Source of the DNA: a virus
Direction: 5' to 3' (one strand)
DNA: 50,669 bases
IMG/VR virus record: IMGVR_UViG_3300044974_000239
Coordinates: 1-50,669 of that record
The position numbers and the translations under genes are program-made. The notes under the pieces were generated by a model. It was not told where the DNA came from. It saw only the letters and a program-made list of their open reading frames with translations, and made no database searches. Positions 14,418 through 30,359 of this stretch are shown in pieces (positions within the stretch are counted from its first letter, which is position 1; each line of letters starts with the position of its first letter).

Positions 14418-15719
14418 ATGAACATTGACAACGAAACCCCTGAAAACACGGGTGCTGTGCGTACTCGAACCATCACAATAAATCCCGATTTAGCCCACTC
14501 AGATGCCTTCACTTTGGCCGATTTGTTGTTTCGCTTCTCAGAGTGTGTAATACGTGTTACCTCAAAAGACAGAAAACTAACAAAGGAAAAGCTAATAGAT
14601 AGCGAGACGACGCAAGACCTATGGATACGTTACGAGACAGACACTGGACAAGTCTACGTTAAATCGAGACAGTTCAAGCGCAACTTAGGCAAACCTTTAC
14701 AACAAGACCTTAAAGACTCAACCCAATACATTGGGTACACCAACAAGCACTTCTATGCCGGAACTCCCTATCCAAGTCAACTATGTGCGTGTCACGTTTT
14801 CAATACAAAGATAGCCCCATCGAAAAGAATAGAAGCTTTAGGCCGACCTGCCATACCTGAAGAAAAGATCGCCTCTCACAGAGCCTACCTGATGCGAATG
14901 CACGGGAATGACGGCAGGCTAGTTGATGTGCTGATGAAAGAGTGGGTCAAGGACTACAACCGACCTAAGAGAATCGTCAAGAACAAGCGACCCAAAGCTG
15001 AAAACATTGCAGAGCAAAAGAGAACCACCAAGAAGTTAAAGACAAGAATAGAAGAGCTAGAGGCGTGGAGAAATGACATGCGGTCATGGGCGGGGGAGGT
15101 AAAGAAAGTGCGGAATAGTTTTGAGGTGGGAGGTGTAACAGGTTCTTATGATGAGAATGCAGTTGAGCCGATCACTATTTTTAAACTCCTCGAAGCGTTA
15201 TCCATGCGGATACTAGCCAGCCAGACCCCCACACAAGACAAACCAGAGAAGCAACCACTCGATGCCATCTCTGAGTACATAAAACTCCATAAGCCACAAA
15301 TACGCACCACTATCACACGCTTAACTAAAATCCCCTCCACCCCTCATACCGAAGGCGCTGAACCTGATCCAGACTATCAAACCAAACTTATACCAGCCTT
15401 AGTGACCCTACCCGACTATGACCCGCGTGACCACAAGCTAGAGACTATCGGGCGCTATGTAGAGACAGTGCGGCTGGATGGGAGTGGTAAGAAAAAGACC
15501 TTATACCTGCACACTGTGCCACTGCGTGACTACCTAGAGAAGCACTACCCCAGCCAGACCATAAGGCTCAAACATGACGTGCGCTATACGCACTCGCAGA
15601 ACTTCAAGATTCACTCTCTACCATCAGCCTCCGGCCTCTATTGTGCCGTGTTCGATATGCGTAGAGGGAGAAAACCTACAGAAAACCTCAAGCAAAACAA
15701 TGAGGTAGAAGAAAGTTAG
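14418..15719 (+). CDS. Orphan 433-residue early protein of unknown function
   Basis: A large soluble protein with a TAAGGA site before the ATG. The N-terminal half has MNIDNETPENTGAVRTRTIT, then TLADLLFRFSECVIRVTSKD and a region around residues 120-165. The middle (about 180-235) is a highly basic coiled coil (KRIVKNKRPKAENIAEQK). The C-terminal part holds VETVRLDGSGKKKTLYLHTV and LRDYLEKHYPSQTIRLKHD. No helicase, nuclease, HTH or replication-initiator signature was recognised. It stands alone between its own promoter and another strong promoter, next to the repeat-rich non-coding region, which makes a DNA-binding or replication-initiation role possible. That role is inferred from context only. 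Confidence 0.75.
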   Translation: MNIDNETPENTGAVRTRTITINPDLAHSDAFTLADLLFRFSECVIRVTSKDRKLTKEKLIDSETTQDLWIRYETDTGQVYVKSRQFKRNLGKPLQQDLKDSTQYIGYTNKHFYAGTPYPSQLCACHVFNTKIAPSKRIEALGRPAIPEEKIASHRAYLMRMHGNDGRLVDVLMKEWVKDYNRPKRIVKNKRPKAENIAEQKRTTKKLKTRIEELEAWRNDMRSWAGEVKKVRNSFEVGGVTGSYDENAVEPITIFKLLEALSMRILASQTPTQDKPEKQPLDAISEYIKLHKPQIRTTITRLTKIPSTPHTEGAEPDPDYQTKLIPALVTLPDYDPRDHKLETIGRYVETVRLDGSGKKKTLYLHTVPLRDYLEKHYPSQTIRLKHDVRYTHSQNFKIHSLPSASGLYCAVFDMRRGRKPTENLKQNNEVEES

Positions 15720-15738
15720 AAAAAGTTTTAATTAGGGG

Positions 15739-15766
15739 TTGACACAACCAGACAAACATATACAAT
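15739..15766 (+). promoter_or_regulatory. Strong sigma70-like promoter
   Basis: A perfect TTGACA (15739-15744), a 16-base spacer and TACAAT (15761-15766, 5 of 6). It is the closest match to the sigma70 consensus among the rightward promoters seen. It drives the DUF2591 operon. Confidence 0.85.
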
Positions 15767-15776
15767 ACCACTCAAC

Positions 15777-15793
15777 GCCCCCACTCAGGGGGC
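15777..15793 (+). promoter_or_regulatory. 5'-terminal leader hairpin
   Basis: GCCCCC-ACTCA-GGGGGC forms a perfect 6-bp stem starting about four bases after the predicted transcription start. It is followed by AGGAG and ATG 15812. No T-run follows, so it is not a terminator. Confidence 0.7.
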
Positions 15794-15811
15794 TGCACCA
15801 AGGAGACTACG

Positions 15812-16042
15812 ATGACCACACCGCTACAAAAAATAAAGATCACAACAGGGCTTCATTACACAAGAGTTGGATCAGGCAACATTCCGGTAGAGGCCACCAT
15901 AAAATACGACATAGAGGATGAGCGCTACTACGTAGCCGAGGTGCTAAGCGAGGGTGTAGATATTAAGGACTACGTAGAGCACGACACACTAGCGGAGATT
16001 GCCGAGGACTGGGTACACGACCAGCTGGAGAGAGGACAATGA
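15812..16042 (+). CDS. Small acidic protein
   Basis: A 76-residue acidic protein. The start has an AGGAG site. The C-terminal part DYVEHDTLAEIAEDWVHDQL resembles that of the gene at 17276-17476 (GYLDQRVLDQLAQDWLACEQ), so the two are probably diverged paralogs either side of the DUF2591/HNH locus. It is first after the strong 15739 promoter and coupled to the DUF2591 gene by ATGA. Function unknown. Confidence 0.75.
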   Translation: MTTPLQKIKITTGLHYTRVGSGNIPVEATIKYDIEDERYYVAEVLSEGVDIKDYVEHDTLAEIAEDWVHDQLERGQ

Positions 16043-16383
16043 AAACAAGTGAGTTAAGCGGCCCCGCCCTTGATTGGGCAGTAGCTAAGTTGGAAGGGGT
16101 TGACCTGTTTGAAACGGAAGGCTGGGTCTACCCAGAAGATGGGGGCCGCGCACCCTACAAACCCTCAACCAACTGGTCCCAAGGCGGGCCGATCATTGAG
16201 CGAGAGAAGATAACACTTGTTGTTTATTGGAATGGGCTTTGGGTTGCCGAGCCGGAGGAAGCGCATGAATCGGTTGGTGAAACCCCACTCATCGCAGCCA
16301 TGCGCTGCTATTGTAGTGCTATACTGGGGGACGAAATTGAAACCCCAAAGGAACTACAACCATGCCAGCAGCCAAGTCTTTAG
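16039..16383 (+). CDS. DUF2591 (NinX-like) protein with a rebuilt C-terminus
   Basis: A 114-residue protein with the DUF2591 signature: MKTSELSGPALDWAVAKLEG at the start, then NWSQGGPIIEREKITLVVYW and ETPLIAAMRCYCSAILGDEI near the end. This family includes NinX-like proteins of lambdoid phages and has no firm function. The normal family ending is GDEx-IPEEL. Here the reading frame continues ETPKEL and then eight unrelated residues encoded by the overlapping start of an HNH endonuclease gene. The expected native ending lies immediately downstream of that HNH gene (16858-16896), so this is an intact gene with a recoded tail caused by insertion. Confidence 0.88.
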   Translation: MKTSELSGPALDWAVAKLEGVDLFETEGWVYPEDGGRAPYKPSTNWSQGGPIIEREKITLVVYWNGLWVAEPEEAHESVGETPLIAAMRCYCSAILGDEIETPKELQPCQQPSL

Positions 16384-16865
16384 CAGGACAAGTCTTCGGT
16401 CGCCTTACTGTTATTGAGCAGTACGGTAGCCGCCAAGGGCGTGTTAATTGGTTGTGTCGGTGTGATTGTGGAACGCTGCACGAAGCTGTTAGCCATGCAC
16501 TTACATCAGGGCACACCAAGTCCTGCGGGTGCTTGAAAGACGAGCGCAACACAAGCACTGCCCACACCCACGGACACGCCAGAAGAAAAACAGGATTATC
16601 GCCCACATATCAGTCTTGGCGCGGCATGCGGACACGCTGCACAAACCCTAACGTCAAGTCGTACAAAGACTACGGTGGCCGAGGTATTCAGATATGCGAA
16701 CGCTGGAAAGACTTCGGTAATTTCCTAGCAGATATGGGTGAGCGTCCTGATGGGCGAACATTGGATCGAAAAAACGTGAACGGTGATTACGAGCCAAATA
16801 ATTGCCAGTGGGCAACACGAAAGGAACAAGCAATGAATACGCAGAAAACAAGCAAAATTAGGTGA
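16362..16865 (+). CDS. HNH-type homing endonuclease inserted in the DUF2591 gene
   Basis: A 167-residue free-standing endonuclease. The N-terminal half carries a zinc-binding cluster (CRCDCG about 33-38, then KSCGCLKDE about 53-61). The C-terminal half has the motif YKDYGGRGIQICERWKDFGN, then TLDRKNVNGDYEPNNCQWAT, the phage HNH-like group with the YGGRGI signature. The ATG lies 22 bases before the stop of the DUF2591 gene, in another frame. Its own final codons overlap a leftover copy of the DUF2591 3' end. This matches a mobile endonuclease that invaded the end of the gene and supplied a substitute end. Confidence 0.9.
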   Translation: MPAAKSLAGQVFGRLTVIEQYGSRQGRVNWLCRCDCGTLHEAVSHALTSGHTKSCGCLKDERNTSTAHTHGHARRKTGLSPTYQSWRGMRTRCTNPNVKSYKDYGGRGIQICERWKDFGNFLADMGERPDGRTLDRKNVNGDYEPNNCQWATRKEQAMNTQKTSKIR

Positions 16866-16896
16866 TGAGATAGATATACCGGAGGAACTGAAATGA
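16858..16896 (+). pseudogene. Leftover 3' end of the DUF2591 gene
   Basis: In frame, these codons read LGDEIDIPEELK and TGA, matching the family-typical C-terminus of DUF2591 proteins. The TGA overlaps the ATG of the next gene as ATGA, so this was the original gene end before the HNH gene entered. It no longer connects to a start codon. The upstream copy LGDEIETPKEL differs at many third codon positions. Confidence 0.85.
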
Positions 16897-17279
16897 TTGA
16901 ATACACAGTAAAAGTGTACCCATGCGGCACAAAGGAATGGTATCTGAACGGCAAACTCCATAGAGAAGACGGGCCCGCCGTTGAATGGCCTAGTGGCTCT
17001 AGGTATTGGTATTTGAATGGCAAGCCCCACAGAGAAGACGGTCCTTCGGCTGAATATGTTGATGGTAGCCGCGAGTGGCATTTGAATGGTAAGCGGCACC
17101 GTGAGGATGGGCCTGCTGTTTATTATGCTGATGGTAGGCGCAGATGGTATTTGAACGGTAAAGAATATACCGAAGACGCTTGGGGCCTGATGATTCTCAA
17201 GAAGAAGGTTGCAGCGAAAGAACTCACCGTAGCAGAGATTGAAGAACTGTTGGGGTATCCAGTAAAGGTGGTGAAATGA
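16893..17279 (+). CDS. REDGPA-repeat protein (four repeats)
   Basis: A 128-residue protein made of about four copies of a 22-residue unit containing WYLNGKxHREDGPAVE and a DGSR-type turn, followed by a helical tail (KKKVAAKELTVAEIEELLGY). MORN-like WYxNGKxHREDGPA repeats occur in phage and giant-virus proteins and are thought to form beta-hairpin ladders; the ligand is unknown. The start overlaps the old DUF2591 stop, so it was originally coupled to that gene. A two-repeat relative lies at 21923-22123. Confidence 0.82.
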   Translation: MIEYTVKVYPCGTKEWYLNGKLHREDGPAVEWPSGSRYWYLNGKPHREDGPSAEYVDGSREWHLNGKRHREDGPAVYYADGRRRWYLNGKEYTEDAWGLMILKKKVAAKELTVAEIEELLGYPVKVVK

Positions 17280-17476
17280 AAGCTTTAATCGGGATCGAAG
17301 AGAAGCGGTGCACGGTGCGTTGCGAGATCGTATACGGCGACGTGTATGTGATTTCCGTGCGAGACTGCCGTGATGGCACGGATGTGAGAGGGTATCTTGA
17401 CCAGCGAGTGCTGGACCAATTGGCACAAGACTGGCTAGCTTGTGAGCAGGAGGAGGAGAGGGAGTTGGATTTTTAG
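17276..17476 (+). CDS. Small protein, probable paralog of the 15812 gene
   Basis: A 66-residue protein coupled by ATGA to the repeat protein. RCEIVYGDVYVISVRDCRDG is followed by LDQRVLDQLAQDWLACEQEE, the same order of beta-like segment and final helix as the gene at 15812-16042. Function unknown. Confidence 0.72.
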   Translation: MKALIGIEEKRCTVRCEIVYGDVYVISVRDCRDGTDVRGYLDQRVLDQLAQDWLACEQEEERELDF

Positions 17477-17489
17477 AGGAGGCAGAAGC

Positions 17490-17969
17490 ATGAACATCTT
17501 TGTTTTATCAGAAGACCCACGCATGGCAGCAATAATGATGTGCGATAAACACATAGCGAAGATGATACTTGAATCAGCGCAACTACTATGTACAGCTATT
17601 AACCATAAGGGCGGATGCACGCCATACAAAACGACGCATCTAAATCATCCTTGTGGATTGTGGACACGTGCAAGCCAAGAGAATTTCCACTGGCTAACCG
17701 AACACGCCAAAGAACTGAACAACCAGTACAGAAAACGCTACGACAAACAGGTCAACCACAAAAGTTGGGAGATCATCAAGCAAACAGTGCGAGACAATGC
17801 GGAAATCATCCGCAGCCTACCAGATATAGGCCCCACGCCCTTTGCTCAAGCCATGCCGGAAGAGTTAAGGATCAAGGACAACCCCGTTGCCGCCTACAGA
17901 AATTATTATAAGACCAAGGGCTTCGCCCGATGGGAAAAAAATGTAGCTTGTCCGGCATGGTGGGGATAG
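17490..17969 (+). CDS. Conserved phage protein with CDKH motif
   Basis: The start is ATG 17490 with AGGAGG seven bases upstream; a longer frame from a start at 17442 lacks such a site. The 159-residue protein has MNIFVLSEDPRMAAIMMCDK then HIAKMILESAQLLCTAIN, a central HLNHPCGLWTRASQENFHWL, and a C-terminal AYRNYYKTKGFARWEKNVAC ending in PAWWG. Conserved His, Cys and Trp residues and this layout recur in many phages and large viruses. I recognise the family by pattern but know no established function; an enzyme acting on nucleic acids or nucleotides is possible. Confidence 0.8.
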   Translation: MNIFVLSEDPRMAAIMMCDKHIAKMILESAQLLCTAINHKGGCTPYKTTHLNHPCGLWTRASQENFHWLTEHAKELNNQYRKRYDKQVNHKSWEIIKQTVRDNAEIIRSLPDIGPTPFAQAMPEELRIKDNPVAAYRNYYKTKGFARWEKNVACPAWWG

Positions 17970-18159
17970 AATAAAAAGGGCGTCAGCTGTGAGTGGCCCT
18001 CCATGTGAAATAACCGCAGCAGGTAGTGAGAAGAAATTCTTTGTGGCGATAGAAAGCCGCAAGTCTCCAGCTTCGGCGCTATCCCTCCGGGGTGCAGGTC
18101 AACCCCAACTAACACACGGCAGACTATGTCTGCCTGAACATAGGAGAACGGGTTTCACC
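17970..18159 (+). other. Non-coding leader with hairpins
   Basis: About 190 bases without a credible gene. It contains GGGGT-gcaggtca-ACCCC (18091-18108 region) and a perfect GCAGAC-TAT-GTCTGC hairpin (about 18119-18133) just upstream of an AGGAGAAC ribosome site. I see no convincing promoter in it. Confidence 0.6.
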
Positions 18160-18309
18160 ATGAAAGAAGATGATTACGTTCGATTAGAATTGTTTCTGGA
18201 AGGTATGGAGCGTATAAAAGACTTCTGCGAAGGCGTAGAAGCGTGGATGAGTGAACTGGAGCAGAGGCTAAGCAAACTGGAGGAACGAAGCGATGATGAC
18301 CTTAAATAA
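18160..18309 (+). CDS. Small acidic coiled-coil protein
   Basis: A 49-residue protein from ATG 18160 (AGGAGAAC upstream; longer in-frame starts at 17989 lack support). It reads MKEDDYVRLELFLEGMERIK and then WMSELEQRLSKLEERSDDD, a predicted coiled coil. Its end overlaps the next gene by 17 bases. Function unknown. Confidence 0.68.
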   Translation: MKEDDYVRLELFLEGMERIKDFCEGVEAWMSELEQRLSKLEERSDDDLK

Positions 18310-18547
18310 TTTTCGGGTGCAGGAAGAACTGTTAAAATTAGAAGGTGCGACAATCCATCACACGCCGACGCACACGGTAGTTACACGAGGAGACTACAGC
18401 TGTCATGTCAGCAACATACGCAAAGACGAGAAGGCCCCATCCCACAAGTTTCTGTGGGACGAGAAGAAGAACGGCAAGCCGTTGAGCCCCAAGCATCTTG
18501 TGTTGAGAGCTCAGGTATCTTACGCACTGGGGAAAGCTGATGTATGA
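18293..18547 (+). CDS. Small protein of unknown function
   Basis: An 84-residue basic protein with MTLNNFRVQEELLKLEGATI, then RGDYSCHVSNIRKDEKAPSH and a conserved-looking KFLWDEKKNGKPLSPKHLVL. GGAGG lies nine bases upstream. The start overlaps the previous gene and the end overlaps the MazG-like gene. No domain was recognised. Confidence 0.7.
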   Translation: MMTLNNFRVQEELLKLEGATIHHTPTHTVVTRGDYSCHVSNIRKDEKAPSHKFLWDEKKNGKPLSPKHLVLRAQVSYALGKADV

Positions 18548-18851
18548 CTTTTACGACTTGGAAGACCTTGTATTTGAGTGGGCTAGTGAACGAGGGATCA
18601 TCAAAAATGGCACAGCAATGGCGCAAGCCATCAAGACAACAGAAGAGGTTGCCGAACTACTCAAGGCCCTGAGCAAAAATGATAGAGCAGAAGTGCGAGA
18701 TGCCTATGGTGATATTCTGGTGACTCTTATTATAGGTGCAGCTATTTCAGAAGTGGATTTGGTTGGTTGTTTGAATGATGCCTACGAAACCATCAAGGAC
18801 CGCAAGGGCTATCTCACCCCGGATGGAATTTTTGTAAAGGAAGAAACATGA
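18540..18851 (+). CDS. MazG-like NTP pyrophosphohydrolase, copy 1
   Basis: A 103-residue all-alpha NTP pyrophosphatase. The metal-binding residues are visible as EEVAELLKAL (EExxE, about 36-40) and EVRDAYGDILVTLIIG (ExxD, about 51-55). Such enzymes hydrolyse NTPs or dNTPs to monophosphates; phage versions may balance nucleotide pools or alter host (p)ppGpp-linked signalling. The ending KDRKGYLTPDGIFVKEE is nearly the same as that of the paralog at 22389-22724. It overlaps the preceding gene by eight bases and is coupled to the next by ATGA. Substrate cannot be deduced here. Confidence 0.88.
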   Translation: MYDFYDLEDLVFEWASERGIIKNGTAMAQAIKTTEEVAELLKALSKNDRAEVRDAYGDILVTLIIGAAISEVDLVGCLNDAYETIKDRKGYLTPDGIFVKEET

Positions 18852-19033
18852 GCAGGGATAAGATAACCGAAGCGTTCAACGAGTGGAGGCAGGATGCCAT
18901 GAAGGACTTGAACAATGTGCCGAACCGATGGGAAGCCTTTTTAGCAGGATGGGAGGCAGCAGTAGAGTGGTATGTAGTAGAAAAGCAGGAGGCCACACCC
19001 GAAGAAATCAGAATAAGTAAAGGCGGGACATGA
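18848..19033 (+). CDS. Small phage protein with a WEAFLAGWEAA helix
   Basis: A 61-residue soluble protein; ITEAFNEWRQDAMKDLNNVP is followed by NRWEAFLAGWEAAVEWYVVE. Short phage proteins with AFLAGWxAA helices are common and uncharacterised. ATGA coupling at both ends. Confidence 0.75.
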   Translation: MSRDKITEAFNEWRQDAMKDLNNVPNRWEAFLAGWEAAVEWYVVEKQEATPEEIRISKGGT

Positions 19034-19251
19034 ACGATGAAAAAAAGATTCTGAAGCGCTGGAGTTTTCTATTAAGCGGACAGGTTGTTATAGCCCCAGC
19101 ATTGGATGAAGACGGAGATATAGATTTCATGATAGTTGAATCAGAAGATTATTTTGCCAAGTGCTATAGCCCAGATGATGTGAACAATGCTGTTGATATA
19201 GCCATGTACAAGGCTGAATTTTCTGATGCGCGGTATGAGTTGATTCATTGA
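19030..19251 (+). CDS. Small acidic phage protein
   Basis: A 73-residue acidic protein with LLSGQVVIAPALDEDGDIDF and a C-terminal NNAVDIAMYKAEFSDARYEL. Its end overlaps the -35 of the promoter that serves the next group. No family was recognised. Confidence 0.7.
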   Translation: MNDEKKILKRWSFLLSGQVVIAPALDEDGDIDFMIVESEDYFAKCYSPDDVNNAVDIAMYKAEFSDARYELIH

Positions 19252-19268
19252 ATTGATTTGTGTATAAT
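19240..19268 (+). promoter_or_regulatory. Strong sigma70-like promoter with perfect -10
   Basis: TTGATT (19240-19245), a 17-base spacer and a perfect TATAAT (19263-19268). It would transcribe the HNH endonuclease and thyX genes. Confidence 0.8.
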
Positions 19269-19274
19269 AGACCC

Positions 19275-19397
19275 CAGCTGTAGCAGGCGTGTACGGATGT
19301 GAAGAGTTCTAGTGTAATGGCATCGTGTTTGGTGGTTGGGTTCTCCGTTCCCTCTGCTACCCGCTAGGCGCGGTGCCTCCCTATACTGGAGAAATGT
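19275..19397 (+). other. Structured leader RNA candidate
   Basis: About 123 untranslated bases lie between the promoter and the HNH gene. GTAGCAG (19280-19286) can pair with CTGCTAC (19354-19360) to close a 67-base loop, and AGGC-GCGGT-GCCT forms a hairpin shortly before the GGAG site. I tested the closed element as a tRNA: the T arm lacks a 5-bp stem and the usual loop sequence, so it is not one. Confidence 0.5.
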
Positions 19398-19883
19398 ATG
19401 CTGACTCAAGAAAGATTAAAGGAACTATTATCGTACAATCCTGAGACGGGTGTGTTTGTGTGGAGAACGCGCAGAAGTGGGATTAAGGTAGGGGTTCTTG
19501 TTGGCAGCCCTAATGCAGACGGGTATTTGCGAATAATGGTAGACAAAAAAAGGTATTTATCGCATAGATTGGCTTGGTTTTACATGTATGGGTATTGGCC
19601 CGACAAGCAAATAGACCATATAAATAGAGTGAGAACAGACAATCGAATAGAAAATTTAAGGGAAGCCACCCCACTACAGAACACATGGAATCTAAGCATA
19701 AGGTCATACAACACATCCGGGCTTACAGGAGCAAGCGTACATAAAAAATCTGGTAAATGGATAGCTCAAATATCAATAGCTGGACGTAAAAAACATTTAG
19801 GGTTACACGCTACGGCAGAAGAGGCGCACATTGCCTACTTAGAGGCTAAAGAACAACATCATAAGATAGGAGCAGAGCAATGA
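19398..19883 (+). CDS. HNH homing endonuclease with AP2 domain
   Basis: A 161-residue endonuclease. The N-terminal half gives FVWRTRRSGIKVGVLVGSPN, then YLSHRLAWFYMYGYWPDKQI and DHINRVRTDNRIENLREAT, the HNH core with catalytic His and Asn in the DHINRxRxDNRIxNLR signature. The C-terminal part is an AP2-like DNA-binding domain: SGLTGASVHKKSGKWIAQIS then GRKKHLGLHATAEEAHIAY. It follows a structured leader and is coupled by ATGA to thyX, a common homing target. thyX itself is uninterrupted, so the endonuclease would act as a free-standing intron-less mobile element near its target. Confidence 0.93.
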   Translation: MLTQERLKELLSYNPETGVFVWRTRRSGIKVGVLVGSPNADGYLRIMVDKKRYLSHRLAWFYMYGYWPDKQIDHINRVRTDNRIENLREATPLQNTWNLSIRSYNTSGLTGASVHKKSGKWIAQISIAGRKKHLGLHATAEEAHIAYLEAKEQHHKIGAEQ

Positions 19884-22123: not shown

Positions 22124-22392
22124 GCGAGCACACGCCGGGGTCTTGGAGGGTTGAGAAAGCGCATGATTTATGGGCGGAAATTCGGTCTGGATACGGCCTT
22201 TCCAACTTTATGATTGCGGATTGTGTCAATCCAGCAAACGCCAGATTGATAGCCGCCTCGCCTGATCTTCTTGCCGCTTTAAAAGCATGTGATGAAGCGA
22301 TGGAATACATGAGCGAGTACGATTCTATACCTATCACACTACCGGGTCAGGTAAAGGCCGCGATAAGAAAAGCAACGGGGGAGCAACAGTGA
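22120..22392 (+). CDS. Conserved phage protein, TPGSWRV / NARLIAASPDLL family
   Basis: A 90-residue protein with the pattern MSEHTPGSWRVEKAHDLWAE then PANARLIAASPDLLAALKAC. This combination is widespread in prophages and lytic phages and has no assigned function. The ATG overlaps the previous stop. Confidence 0.85.
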   Translation: MSEHTPGSWRVEKAHDLWAEIRSGYGLSNFMIADCVNPANARLIAASPDLLAALKACDEAMEYMSEYDSIPITLPGQVKAAIRKATGEQQ

Positions 22393-22724
22393 GCGAATCA
22401 TTTCAGACATTAGAATTAAAGGTCCTCCGATGGGCAGAGGAAAGGAAGATCATCCCTAATAGTAACCCGCTGGCTCAGGCTATAAAGACGCTTGAGGAAG
22501 TAAGCGAGTTGCTTACTGCGCTAAATCAGTGCAGTGTAGATCGGGAGTGGTTTCAAGATGAAGCGAGAGATGCCTATGGCGATATCCTTGTCACATTGAT
22601 AATAGGCGCTGATTTATTGGGGACAGACTTGCGAAGTTGTTTAGATGATGCTTATGAGATGATCAAGGATAGAAAGGGATACTTAACCAGCGATGGTATC
22701 TTTGTGAAGGAGGAAAGCAAATGA
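22389..22724 (+). CDS. MazG-like NTP pyrophosphohydrolase, copy 2
   Basis: A 111-residue paralog of the gene at 18540-18851. EEVSELLTAL (EExxE) and EARDAYGDILVTLIIGAD (ExxD) supply the metal-binding residues, and the ending KDRKGYLTSDGIFVKEE is nearly shared. It starts at GTG 22389 after GGGGGAG. Compared with copy 1 it has an insert of about eight residues between the two motifs (NQCSVDREWFQDE). Two such genes in one phage suggest different substrates or a recent duplication followed by change. Confidence 0.88.
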   Translation: MSESFQTLELKVLRWAEERKIIPNSNPLAQAIKTLEEVSELLTALNQCSVDREWFQDEARDAYGDILVTLIIGADLLGTDLRSCLDDAYEMIKDRKGYLTSDGIFVKEESK

Positions 22725-26772: not shown

Positions 26773-28604
26773 TGGACCTAGCGGTGGTTGACTACGAAAC
26801 TTTTTATGATAAGGACTATTCCCTCTCCAAGTTAAGCACAGCCGCATATATACAAAGCCCTCAGTTTCGGGTGATCGGTGCAGGGATAAAAATCAACGAA
26901 GCGCCAACCGTGTGGAGGGTAGGCGCGCAGGTAGGGAATGAACTGCATAGAATAGACTGGAATAAGACAGCGCTCCTAGCACATAACAGCGTCTTCGATT
27001 GCACCATACTGACATGGAAGTATGGGATAAAACCCAAGCTTGTATTAGACACGTTAAGCCTCGCTCGTGCGGTACACGGCACTGAAGTAGGTGGGAGTTT
27101 AGCAGCGCTGGCGAAGCATTATGGGATAGGAGAGAAAGGGACCGAGGTGGTTGCGGCGTTAGGTAAACAGCTAGAAGATTTCACGGAAGAAGAGTTGAAG
27201 AGATATGGAGAGTATTGCGTCAACGATGTTGAGTTAACCTACGAACTATTCAAAAGACTGGCCCCACATTTCAGCAAGAAAGAAATCCAACTGATTGATA
27301 TGACGATCAGAATGCACAGCGAGCCTTCTCTACAGTTGGATAAGGCTGTGCTAGAAGAGAACCTTGAGGAGATACGCCGCAAGAAAGAACAAGCGTTACA
27401 AGACTGCGGGGTGAACAAGGAAGACCTCATGTCCAATAACAAGTTTGCAGAGGTACTGAGAGGGTTAGGTGTTGAGCCTCCTACTAAGATAAGTCCACGG
27501 ACAGGTAAGGAAACTTATGCATTCGCTAAGAAAGACGAGGAACTGTTATCACTTCTTGAGCACGATGACCTGACGGTGCAAACAGTTGTCGCAGCTAGGC
27601 TGCAGACCAAGGAGACTTTAGAAGAGACTAAGACTATTCGGTTGATTGAGACAGCGGACGTGTATCCGCTACTACCTGTTGGGTTGAAGTATTACGGAGC
27701 GGAAGTTACAGGTCGGTTTTCAGCGGGGGGAGATGGGGGAGCTCTACAGTTACAGAACATAGCAAGAACCTCTCGAATCAAGGAGGCTATCGTTGCGCCT
27801 GATGGATACGTAGTAGTCGGGTTCGACTTGTCGAACATTGAGGTGCGGGTTAATTTGTACTTGGCAGGGCAGATGGATCAGTTAGATGTCATTCGTTCCG
27901 GTACGGATATGTATCGTGTGTTCGGCAGCAAAGTGTTCGGTGTTCCGTATAATGAGATTGACAAGCAGCAACGCTTCATCTCGAAAACAGCTGTACTAGG
28001 ACTCGGCTTCGGGGCTTCAGCGCCTGTGCTACGTAAAGCTATTAAGTTGGGGTCAGGAGTGGATGTGGGAGAGGAAGAATCCATCCGTATCGTCAGTGCA
28101 TACAGAGACCTGCATCCTAATGTGGTAAGTGCATGGCGTATGGGGGCTAATGTTATCGATGCTGTACACGAAGACTCCTACTATGATTATTGCCCCGGTG
28201 CCTTGAGTCTACCTGTACACGGCAAAAAAGGAGTACAACTTCCTAGCGGGATGTTCATCAAGTATCCGGGTCTAGCGCAACATGTGAACGACGAGGGTAG
28301 GCTAGAGTGGTCGTATGAAGGAAGACGGGGTGTAAAGAAGAAGATATATAGCAGCAAAATTCTACAGAACTGCACTCAAAGCGTAGCCCGTTGTGTGATG
28401 AGCGAAGCGATGGTGAGGATAAACAAGAGGTACAGGATCGCGTTGACCGTGCATGACAGTTGTGCTATCGTAGTTCCAGAAAGTGAAGCAGAGACAGCAT
28501 ACTCTTTTATGCTGGCAGAAATGACAAAATCTCCTGAGTGGGCTCCAGACTTACCGCTGGCTGCTGAGGGAGGGATAGGTAAAAATTTGAAGGAGTGCAT
28601 GTAA
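26772..28604 (+). CDS. Family A DNA polymerase with 3'-5' exonuclease
   Basis: From ATG 26772, a 610-residue Pol I-type polymerase. The exonuclease domain is intact: VVDYETF (D7, E9), AHNSVFDCTIL and YCVNDVELTYELF. The palm has motif A GFDLSNIEVR (D352), motif B RFISKTAVLGLGFG (R401, K405) and motif C LTVHDSC (D562). The residue at the E. coli Pol I 762 position is Leu409, and the next aromatic is Phe413 in place of Tyr. Motif C has Ser in place of the usual Glu. There is no 5'-3' nuclease. Leu at 762 is a known class marker in phage polymerases. It is the phage replicase, beside VRR-NUC and Cas4-like nucleases. Confidence 0.97.
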   Translation: MDLAVVDYETFYDKDYSLSKLSTAAYIQSPQFRVIGAGIKINEAPTVWRVGAQVGNELHRIDWNKTALLAHNSVFDCTILTWKYGIKPKLVLDTLSLARAVHGTEVGGSLAALAKHYGIGEKGTEVVAALGKQLEDFTEEELKRYGEYCVNDVELTYELFKRLAPHFSKKEIQLIDMTIRMHSEPSLQLDKAVLEENLEEIRRKKEQALQDCGVNKEDLMSNNKFAEVLRGLGVEPPTKISPRTGKETYAFAKKDEELLSLLEHDDLTVQTVVAARLQTKETLEETKTIRLIETADVYPLLPVGLKYYGAEVTGRFSAGGDGGALQLQNIARTSRIKEAIVAPDGYVVVGFDLSNIEVRVNLYLAGQMDQLDVIRSGTDMYRVFGSKVFGVPYNEIDKQQRFISKTAVLGLGFGASAPVLRKAIKLGSGVDVGEEESIRIVSAYRDLHPNVVSAWRMGANVIDAVHEDSYYDYCPGALSLPVHGKKGVQLPSGMFIKYPGLAQHVNDEGRLEWSYEGRRGVKKKIYSSKILQNCTQSVARCVMSEAMVRINKRYRIALTVHDSCAIVVPESEAETAYSFMLAEMTKSPEWAPDLPLAAEGGIGKNLKECM

Positions 28605-28822
28605 TGGTAGAAGAAAAAACGCTACCTACTGTTGGAATATCTATCGGTATTTATGATGACGCTGTTGAAGGACTGACTGTTATGCTCAACCTCAGTGAAA
28701 ACGGATACAAGACAACATACCTAACGATGACCGCAGCTAGAGCTAGGCTGTATGGAGAAATGCTCATAAGCTGTGCAGATGCTGTCTACGAAGAGAAAGA
28801 GAACGGAGCATTTGCTCAATGA
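28604..28822 (+). CDS. Small protein after the polymerase
   Basis: A 72-residue protein from ATG 28604 (TAATG overlap with polA; AAGGAG upstream). TLPTVGISIGIYDDAVEGLT is followed by RLYGEMLISCADAVYEEKEN. No recognised domain. Confidence 0.7.
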   Translation: MVEEKTLPTVGISIGIYDDAVEGLTVMLNLSENGYKTTYLTMTAARARLYGEMLISCADAVYEEKENGAFAQ

Positions 28823-29499
28823 GTAAAACCCCCGGTGCATGGAGCTACAGTGGACTCAAGACATACGAGACTTGCCCTAAGAAGTACGAAGCCGAGAAGA
28901 TCACCAAGGAAGTTAAGTTTACTGATAGCGAAGCTACACTGTACGGGAAGTCACTGCACCTTGCGGCTGAAGAGTACATAAGAGATGGTAAAGAACTGCC
29001 GGGGCAGTTTGCCTTTATTAAGCCTTATCTGGATAAGCTGGTTGCCATTCCCGGTGAGAAACATTGTGAACTAAAGCTGGGAGTAAAGAAAGATGACGGT
29101 CGATTGGTGGCATGTGATTTCTTCGATAGTAGTGTATGGTTCCGTGGTATTGCTGATTTGGTTATTATTGACGGGGCCAAAGGTTGGATCGTAGATTACA
29201 AGACAGGTAAGAGCGCGAAGTATGCGGATACAAGACAGCTGGCGCTTATGGCTGCTGCGCTCTTTTTGAAATTCCCTGAGCTTGAGAAGATCAAAGCTTC
29301 ACTGCTGTTCGTTGTCTCAAAGGAGTTCATACGTGCAGAGTATGAGGCAGAGCGAGGGCTGGATATTTTTGGTGAATTGGCGGACCTGTTGACACAGAGG
29401 GAAGTGTCATATTCGACTGGCATTTTTAATCCAAAGCAGAATCCTCTATGCCGTAAGTGGTGTGAGGTTTTGTCGTGCGCCCATAATGGGAGAAACTAA
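28819..29499 (+). CDS. Cas4/RecB-like PD-(D/E)XK exonuclease
   Basis: A 226-residue nuclease. SYSGLKTYETCPKKYEAEKI is the family opening with an N-terminal Cys, and YGKSLHLAAEEYIRDGKEL follows. RGIADLVIIDGAKGWIVDYK then TGKSAKYADTRQLALMAAAL carries the catalytic D and DYK. The C-terminal cluster PLCRKWCEVLSCAHNG adds three Cys, so an iron-sulphur cluster as in Cas4/AddB is plausible. It could process ends in recombination or degrade host DNA. It is coupled to the small gene upstream and followed directly by an HNH gene. Confidence 0.87.
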   Translation: MSKTPGAWSYSGLKTYETCPKKYEAEKITKEVKFTDSEATLYGKSLHLAAEEYIRDGKELPGQFAFIKPYLDKLVAIPGEKHCELKLGVKKDDGRLVACDFFDSSVWFRGIADLVIIDGAKGWIVDYKTGKSAKYADTRQLALMAAALFLKFPELEKIKASLLFVVSKEFIRAEYEAERGLDIFGELADLLTQREVSYSTGIFNPKQNPLCRKWCEVLSCAHNGRN

Positions 29500-30089
29500 T
29501 GCCTCATAAAGACCCAGAAAGAAAAAAGTTATACATGAAGGAGTACTTTAAAAGACAGAAAGAGTTAGGCAAAGTGCGACCTAAGAGAGATAGAAAAGAG
29601 TACAATGCTATTTATTATGAGGCGAATAAAGACAAGCTTAAAAAAGATACATTGACTTACTACTACGATAATAAAGAAAAAATCAGTAAGAGTAAGAAAA
29701 CGTATGCGGCAAAATACAGAAAAGAAAAAGCTGAAATTATTAGCGCTAAAAGCAAAGAATACGCCCAACGCAATAAAGACAAAATACGCAAATATCAAAA
29801 AGCATACAGAGAAAAAAATAGAGGTTTGATACGATATTACGTAAGAGCATACCAAACAAAAAAGAAACATTGCTCTCCTGTATGGTTGTCATCTTCGCAC
29901 AAATGGATGATGAAAGAAATATATGCGTTAGCCGTGTTAAGAACAGAGCTTACGGGTGTTGAATGGCATGTAGATCACATAGTGCCATTGAGAGGAGAAA
30001 TTGTTAGCGGGCTACATGTGCCTTGGAATTTGCAAGTGCTTCCTTATATTGATAACATAAGAAAAGGCAACAAGTTTACCGCCAACTAA
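29499..30089 (+). CDS. HNH endonuclease with Lys-rich N-terminus
   Basis: A 196-residue protein. Residues 1-125 are Lys/Arg/Tyr-rich repeats (KEYFKRQKELGKVRPKRDRK; YRKEKAEIISAKSKEYAQRN) that resemble DNA-binding repeats. The C-terminus has the HNH core WHVDHIVPLRGEIVSGLHVP then WNLQVLPYIDNIRKGNKF. It is inserted between the Cas4-like nuclease and the following gene with a TAATG overlap. This class is a free-standing phage homing endonuclease. Confidence 0.9.
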   Translation: MPHKDPERKKLYMKEYFKRQKELGKVRPKRDRKEYNAIYYEANKDKLKKDTLTYYYDNKEKISKSKKTYAAKYRKEKAEIISAKSKEYAQRNKDKIRKYQKAYREKNRGLIRYYVRAYQTKKKHCSPVWLSSSHKWMMKEIYALAVLRTELTGVEWHVDHIVPLRGEIVSGLHVPWNLQVLPYIDNIRKGNKFTAN

Positions 30090-30101
30090 AAGAGTACCAG
30101 T

Positions 30102-30359
30102 ATGCCTATCAAACCAGAGAATCGCAACTACCGCCACGAAACCAAATTAGAAAAGGCCAGACCCGGAGCCCACGAAGCTCGGCTAGAAAGGCAGAGAGCC
30201 AGAAGAGAGTTAGACAAAAAGGGCGTAGATCGTACCGGCAAGCATGTGGCACATAAGAAAGCCCTCGCCAACGGCGGTACAAATGCAGACGGATACACAC
30301 TGCAGTCGCCTAAGAAGAACATGAGTTTCCCAAGGAAGAGTAACCATAAACCTAAATGA
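30102..30359 (+). CDS. Small basic phage protein
   Basis: An 85-residue basic protein: MPIKPENRNYRHETKLEKAR, then GKHVAHKKALANGGTNADGY and NMSFPRKSNHKPK. The H/N pattern in the middle resembles an HNH remnant (compare GKxVxHxxxLxxGGxN). It may be a degenerate nuclease-type nucleic-acid binder; family known in phages but uncharacterised. Confidence 0.78.
   Translation: MPIKPENRNYRHETKLEKARPGAHEARLERQRARRELDKKGVDRTGKHVAHKKALANGGTNADGYTLQSPKKNMSFPRKSNHKPK

Follow-up and report, generated by a model that had tools for sequence, protein, structure and literature searches.

A free-standing HNH endonuclease gene stands at the 3' end of a NinX/DUF2591 gene in a 50,669-base virus record (the whole stretch analysed, hereafter the window), where it most probably arrived by homing from a co-infecting phage together with a copy of the donor's gene tail. 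We put the probability of this reading at roughly 80%. The NinX gene of the window carries a foreign C-terminus, which continues the reading frame of the resident gene and differs in sequence from the native end. The native C-terminus is kept downstream and is identical to that of L002, a close relative that has no insert.

Empty and filled alleles of the NinX locus

L002 is contig IMGVR_UViG_3300042938_001172, a metagenome assembly and the sole close empty allele known. Its identity to the window is 99.57% across 3271 bp on the left side of the site and 100% across 552 bp on the right; further on it is 99.76% across 2487 bp. Its NinX gene is uninterrupted, has no HNH gene and reads into ...FVKRKLGDEIDIPEELK and a stop. 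In place of 11 bp of L002 the window has 545 bp (16310-16854). A second contig, L001, is in the filled state and identical to the window across 6.3 kb, so that the site is polymorphic for presence and absence, with the window and L001 filled and L002 empty.

In the window the NinX gene is a hybrid ORF at 16039-16383 (+; PF10765, E 2.7e-20). Its resident body (16039-16309, +), which carries the PF10765 similarity, is collinear with L002 3001-3271. The foreign tail YCSAILGDEIETPKELQP (16310-16361, +) follows; it is absent from L002 and resembles other NinX lineages. In the next 22 nt (16362-16383, +) the end of NinX, CQQPSL and stop, overlaps the start of the HNH ORF, and the product therefore ends in LGDEIETPKEL plus QPCQQPSL. 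The HNH gene (16362-16865, +) encodes 167 aa and is missing at the L002 site. Behind it lies the stranded native tail, KLGDEIDIPEELK and stop (16855-16896, +), within a segment (16855-17406) that equals L002 3283-3834 at 100%. The next gene (16893-17279, +) encodes a 128-aa repeat protein and is the same in both. The downstream tail matches the end of the uninterrupted L002 NinX exactly; it is therefore the native tail and the upstream one the replacement, and the duplication is not due to chance. A first-pass annotation had proposed that the HNH gene captured the end of NinX and left the native tail behind, and had predicted that relatives without the HNH gene would read straight through; L002 does so. 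The family-typical ending that it placed after the HNH gene is also there: LGDEIDIPEELK runs to a stop at 16896 that overlaps the ATG at 16893.

The orphan tail, whose frame lacks a start codon, is recognised by a NinX profile that was made from relatives (16843-16893, E 0.0091, family columns 97-111). The stranded NinX DNA also contains the HNH stop codon (16863-16865), and the final HNH codons and stop (KIR and stop) are resident NinX DNA read in another frame. Shine-Dalgarno-like stretches precede both downstream starts: AAAGGAA, in the foreign tail, before the HNH ATG, and GGAGGAA, in the stranded tail, before the gene at 16893. The stranded tail retains GGAGGAA and the ATGA overlap that serve this next gene, which, judging from the sequence, would be a plain reason for the persistence of the remnant. 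Among 103 NinX-like gene ends, 46 have an ATGA overlap with the next start and 61 have a Shine-Dalgarno-like stretch within the last 25 nt. Selection on the conserved PEEL tail may thus act in part on its role as a start signal.

The HNH protein matches the phrog_374 HNH endonucleases (E 7e-67, residues 1-165) and is nearest to phage homing endonuclease families. It has no Pfam match at 0.1. Its predicted fold (mean pLDDT 81, pTM 0.49) has no significant counterpart in the PDB, and the HNH assignment therefore rests on PHROGs. The gene lies outside any intron or intein.

Other differences and genes were seen around the locus. Small genes at 15812-16042 and 17276-17476 flank the NinX region and are paralog-like by eye. 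Window positions 17407-19467 (2061 bp) are missing in L002, and at the junction in L002 both the 66-aa gene at 17276 and the start of an HNH-AP2 gene are cut short. The window phage has four homing-type nuclease genes: the HNH gene beside NinX, a GIY-YIG gene with NUMOD3 (1805-2752, -), an HNH_3 gene with AP2 (19398-19883, +) and an EndoVII-like gene. The family A DNA polymerase ORF of L002 (L240:5422-8166; contig 16422-19169) has an intein-like insert, CLAEGTEVLT...VHNC, which the polymerase of the window does not have. An HNH ORF lies inside this insert in another frame and belongs to the family of the window HNH (L240:7202-7855; L002 contig 18202-18858). The arrangement recalls the 'hidden HNH' element of ShiLan, as presented in the available text of PMC11855218.

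Origin of the new tail and the probable route of insertion

The foreign tail YCSAILGDEIETPKELQP retains the G, D, P and L that are invariant across the NinX alignment. L009, which belongs to a different NinX lineage, has 33 nt identical to it (ACCCCACTC...TATTGT). The NinX of L076 ends in ...PKELQP and a stop at ...CTACAACCATGA; its DNA end, ...GAGCTACAACCATGA, encodes ELQP and a stop that overlaps the next start (ATGA), and the window at the same point reads ...GAACTACAACCATGCC. By these alignments LGDEIETPKEL is a real NinX tail of another lineage that arrived with the HNH gene. The donor's ATGA would have become the HNH ATG, with the stop turned into Cys and CQQPSL added. As L076 ends in PKELQP, the residues QP probably belonged to the donor gene already, which leaves CQQPSL as the part contributed by the HNH start. 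The first-pass annotation had taken the whole ending, with eight unrelated residues, for a product of recoding by the HNH overlap; this holds for the last six residues and fails for LGDEIETPKEL and, probably, for QP.

The donor phage was not found, and a search of viral_contigs found the new tail encoded in no other viral contig. When the locus was compared with named phages at the nucleotide level, only weak matches in the HNH region came up. Some 125 viral and genomic NinX loci contain no other NinX-HNH pair, and close relatives of the HNH gene adjoin many different genes, which indicates that it is not a regular NinX resident. A separate observation concerns L009:3724-3996, a non-NinX ORF two genes after an intact NinX. 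It ends in a NinX-type tail, ELGDEVDIPEELK and stop, with a ribosome-binding stretch and an ATGA overlap, and a NinX-type tail and start signal may travel as a module.

Comparison of the window with L002 reveals 14 SNPs in the 3271 bp upstream, seven of which lie at 16099-16290, against the insert (7/14 within 211 bp, binomial P 1.1e-5). There are none in 14751-16098 (1.35 kb) and none in the 552 bp downstream (16855-17406). The cluster probably represents a one-sided co-conversion tract (16099-16309, +; minimum 16099-16290, from the SNPs). Here co-conversion of flanking markers is read from natural alleles and not from a cross. Asymmetric co-conversion, with one DNA end protected, is described for phage homing in the available text of PMC2988022. 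The right border, just before AAATTAGGT, would mark the neighbourhood of the cut and gives a probable cut site, predicted from sequence. The AAA at the junction could be microhomology.

These features suggest the following course. A co-infecting phage with the HNH gene at the end of its own NinX would have been the donor. The endonuclease is predicted to have cut the uninterrupted NinX, most likely near the codons for FVKRK. The left end would have been resected into NinX and would then have invaded the donor NinX, so that donor tail and HNH gene were copied as a one-sided co-conversion. A short microhomology (AAA) would then have served to join the new end to the right end, which would hardly have been resected. 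Since the donor tail supplies the lost codons, NinX remains complete, and the stranded native tail would be untranslated DNA that still bears the Shine-Dalgarno stretch and start overlap for the next gene. The two window tails match at 23 of 36 nt, and 9 of the 13 differences are at third codon positions. The earlier annotation had taken such differences as a sign of escape from cutting; the count bears out the predominance of third positions, but any homologous tails would look alike and escape is not shown thereby. The pattern fits a cut-resistant new tail as well as ordinary divergence.

Exchanged gene ends beside other endonuclease genes

A second end swap is seen in the window phage, at a PD-(D/E)XK nuclease gene (28819-29499, +; PF12705, E 7e-14) whose last ~100 nt are exchanged. 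It is followed by the EndoVII-like endonuclease gene (29499-30089, +; phrog_1035 'endonuclease VII', E 1.8e-11). The body of the nuclease gene is 99% that of L277/L278; against L278, on the L002 contig, 562 of the first 572 nt match and 55 of the last 100. L277 and L278 have the other, native end in common and no EndoVII-like gene. The window ending, CEVLSCAHNGRN, resembles that of the more distant L282/L283 (CEVLSCGHNGRN), and this foreign end came in together with the EndoVII-like gene.

Duplicated tails were sought at 140 distinct HNH loci by taking the 30 C-terminal residues encoded by the gene upstream of each HNH gene and comparing them with the three frames downstream. The tail of the upstream gene is duplicated in four phages (the window, L367, L394 and L417) and probably in L022; the loci were picked by similarity to the window HNH, and 4-5/140 is therefore not an unbiased rate. 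The upstream gene is an ATP-dependent DNA ligase (PF01068) in L417 and DUF7484, the phiKZ gp42 family, in L394, where the stranded tail supplies the HNH stop, as it does in the window. In L367 the tail is NPWVWVV, and the gene is ASCH-like by eye and has no Pfam family. In L022 it is a phage capsid gene (PF05065), and the HNH gene ends in frame with KLATSAT and stop, the last seven residues of the capsid, in other codons. Differences between the copies are mostly synonymous except in L367 (synonymous/nonsynonymous codons: L394, 12/1; L022, 5/0; window, 7/4; L417, 11/9; L367, 6/8). A survey of 299 proteobacteria genomes added only 11 more HNH matches. L413 was not counted because of HNH-HNH paralogy, nor were L364/L366, which are low-complexity.

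In a cross-locus null, a score of at least 70 was reached by 0 of 7678 pairs, against 3 of 195 real pairs. At a score of 45 there were 14 null and 4 real matches, the null ones being mostly HNH paralogs. The head of the following gene was not found duplicated before the HNH gene in any of 161 tests (best score 37). A control of other adjacent gene pairs was at first swamped by tandem repeat-protein paralogs, and a paralog filter was then applied. It left 2 of 61 HNH genes against 5 of 873 other pairs (Fisher P 0.07), a weak contrast because the strict adjacency rule kept only 61 HNH genes; reliance is therefore placed on the cross-locus null, the head control and case-by-case inspection. Matches without core paralogy among the 873 pairs are few: L058, where a NinX-type tail adjoins NinX, L010, L272 and weak others. 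In L010:1540-2360 a 235-aa gene without a PHROGs match lies between two tail copies of near-identical DNA, a plain duplication. In L272:3698-5149 a QueC-like gene is followed by a GIY-YIG homing endonuclease and then by a weak tail repeat (YNCQP / YNCKP), possibly the same end swap by another nuclease family.

The window allele could also have arisen by passive transfer, an ordinary phage recombination that relied on homology in NinX at one end and on illegitimate joining at the other and involved no HNH cut. Mosaicism between the window and L002 is also seen elsewhere, in divergent blocks at 22200-22400 and 28300-28600, and little homology suffices for phage recombination. We nevertheless consider such an origin unlikely. 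The junction falls exactly at an endonuclease gene, here and at 29499-30102, and tail duplication recurs beside endonuclease genes across unrelated genes, whereas the explainable filter-passing pairs among the 873 others come down to tail paralogy, GIY-YIG (L272) and near-identical repeats (L010).

Only two alleles are known at the site, which leaves room for the reverse direction, with the window state ancestral and the HNH gene lost by L002. Such a loss is very unlikely: it would need FVKRK rebuilt in frame, the insert removed and the seven upstream SNPs changed together, and the window has an out-of-place copy of the exact L002 tail, a remnant that is sensible only after insertion. If the NinX tail had simply been duplicated in tandem, with an unrelated gene between the copies, L010 would be a precedent, but such copies would start identical, and window tails that agree at only 23/36 nt, the upstream one nearer to other NinX lineages, make it highly improbable. 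Introns often house HNH endonucleases, but an intron or intein can be dismissed here, since the insert replaces 11 nt, excision of 16310-16854 in silico gives a stop directly after ...AAMRC without restoring NinX, and no Rfam intron family matches.

Relation to known systems and significance

The architecture at the NinX end has its closest likeness in mobile ORFs of fungal mitochondria (PMC3630166). There an endonuclease ORF enters the 3' end of a host gene and brings a divergent C-terminus, the native one is left downstream or wholly replaced, and replacement and native copies show mostly synonymous differences. Such ORFs with foreign C-termini are reported in Glomus atp6, atp9, cox2 and nad3 (PMC3630166) and in Allomyces macrogynus atp6 (Paquin et al. 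1994, as cited there). The PD-(D/E)XK gene, with its native end wholly replaced, resembles Glomus atp9 (PMC3630166). The mitochondrial ORFs are LAGLIDADG or GIY-YIG, make long inserts and have transcript data (PMC3630166), whereas the window is from a dsDNA phage, and its compact HNH gene overlaps the host gene, whose DNA also provides the HNH stop codon. The two appear to work alike without common descent, one being a phage-family HNH and the others LAGLIDADG or GIY-YIG.

Among phages, the T4-type seg and mob genes are likewise free-standing and co-convert flanking DNA, and one-sided co-conversion tracts are reported for I-TevI, in the available text of PMC2988022. The endonucleases treated there usually lie between genes and cut at a distance, or split a gene into two proteins, as do mobE in Aeh1 nrdA and mobA in T4 gene 60; that text describes no replacement gene end with a stranded native end. 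Phage nuclease genes lie at genetic-exchange boundaries in the portion available of PMC10448857. These nucleases and the Skunavirus HNH endonucleases (PMC12724721, also in part) mark recombination borders and have polymorphic flanks, like the window gene, and the same portions describe no duplicated stranded gene tail. No phage report of such an end swap was found in the open-access literature (subscription journals were outside the scope).

Together, the window and L002 give a clean view of a phage gene before and after its invasion by a free-standing homing endonuclease. The chances seem evenly poised that several families of phage homing endonucleases recurrently carry gene ends. The element would then be a replacement 3' end plus an endonuclease, its tail homologous, recoded and cut-resistant, letting the nuclease invade the coding ends of essential genes (capsid, ligase, nuclease) non-lethally and leaving stranded tails as dated fossils. 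Since a stranded tail is easy to recognise in sequence, all phage genomes can be screened for it, and one could then measure how often such invasions occur, which genes they hit and how old they are. The locus also carries a warning that a phage protein encoded next to a nuclease gene may have a foreign C-terminus. It suggests how endonuclease genes enter coding sequence without loss of the host gene, by a trick known from fungal mitochondria.
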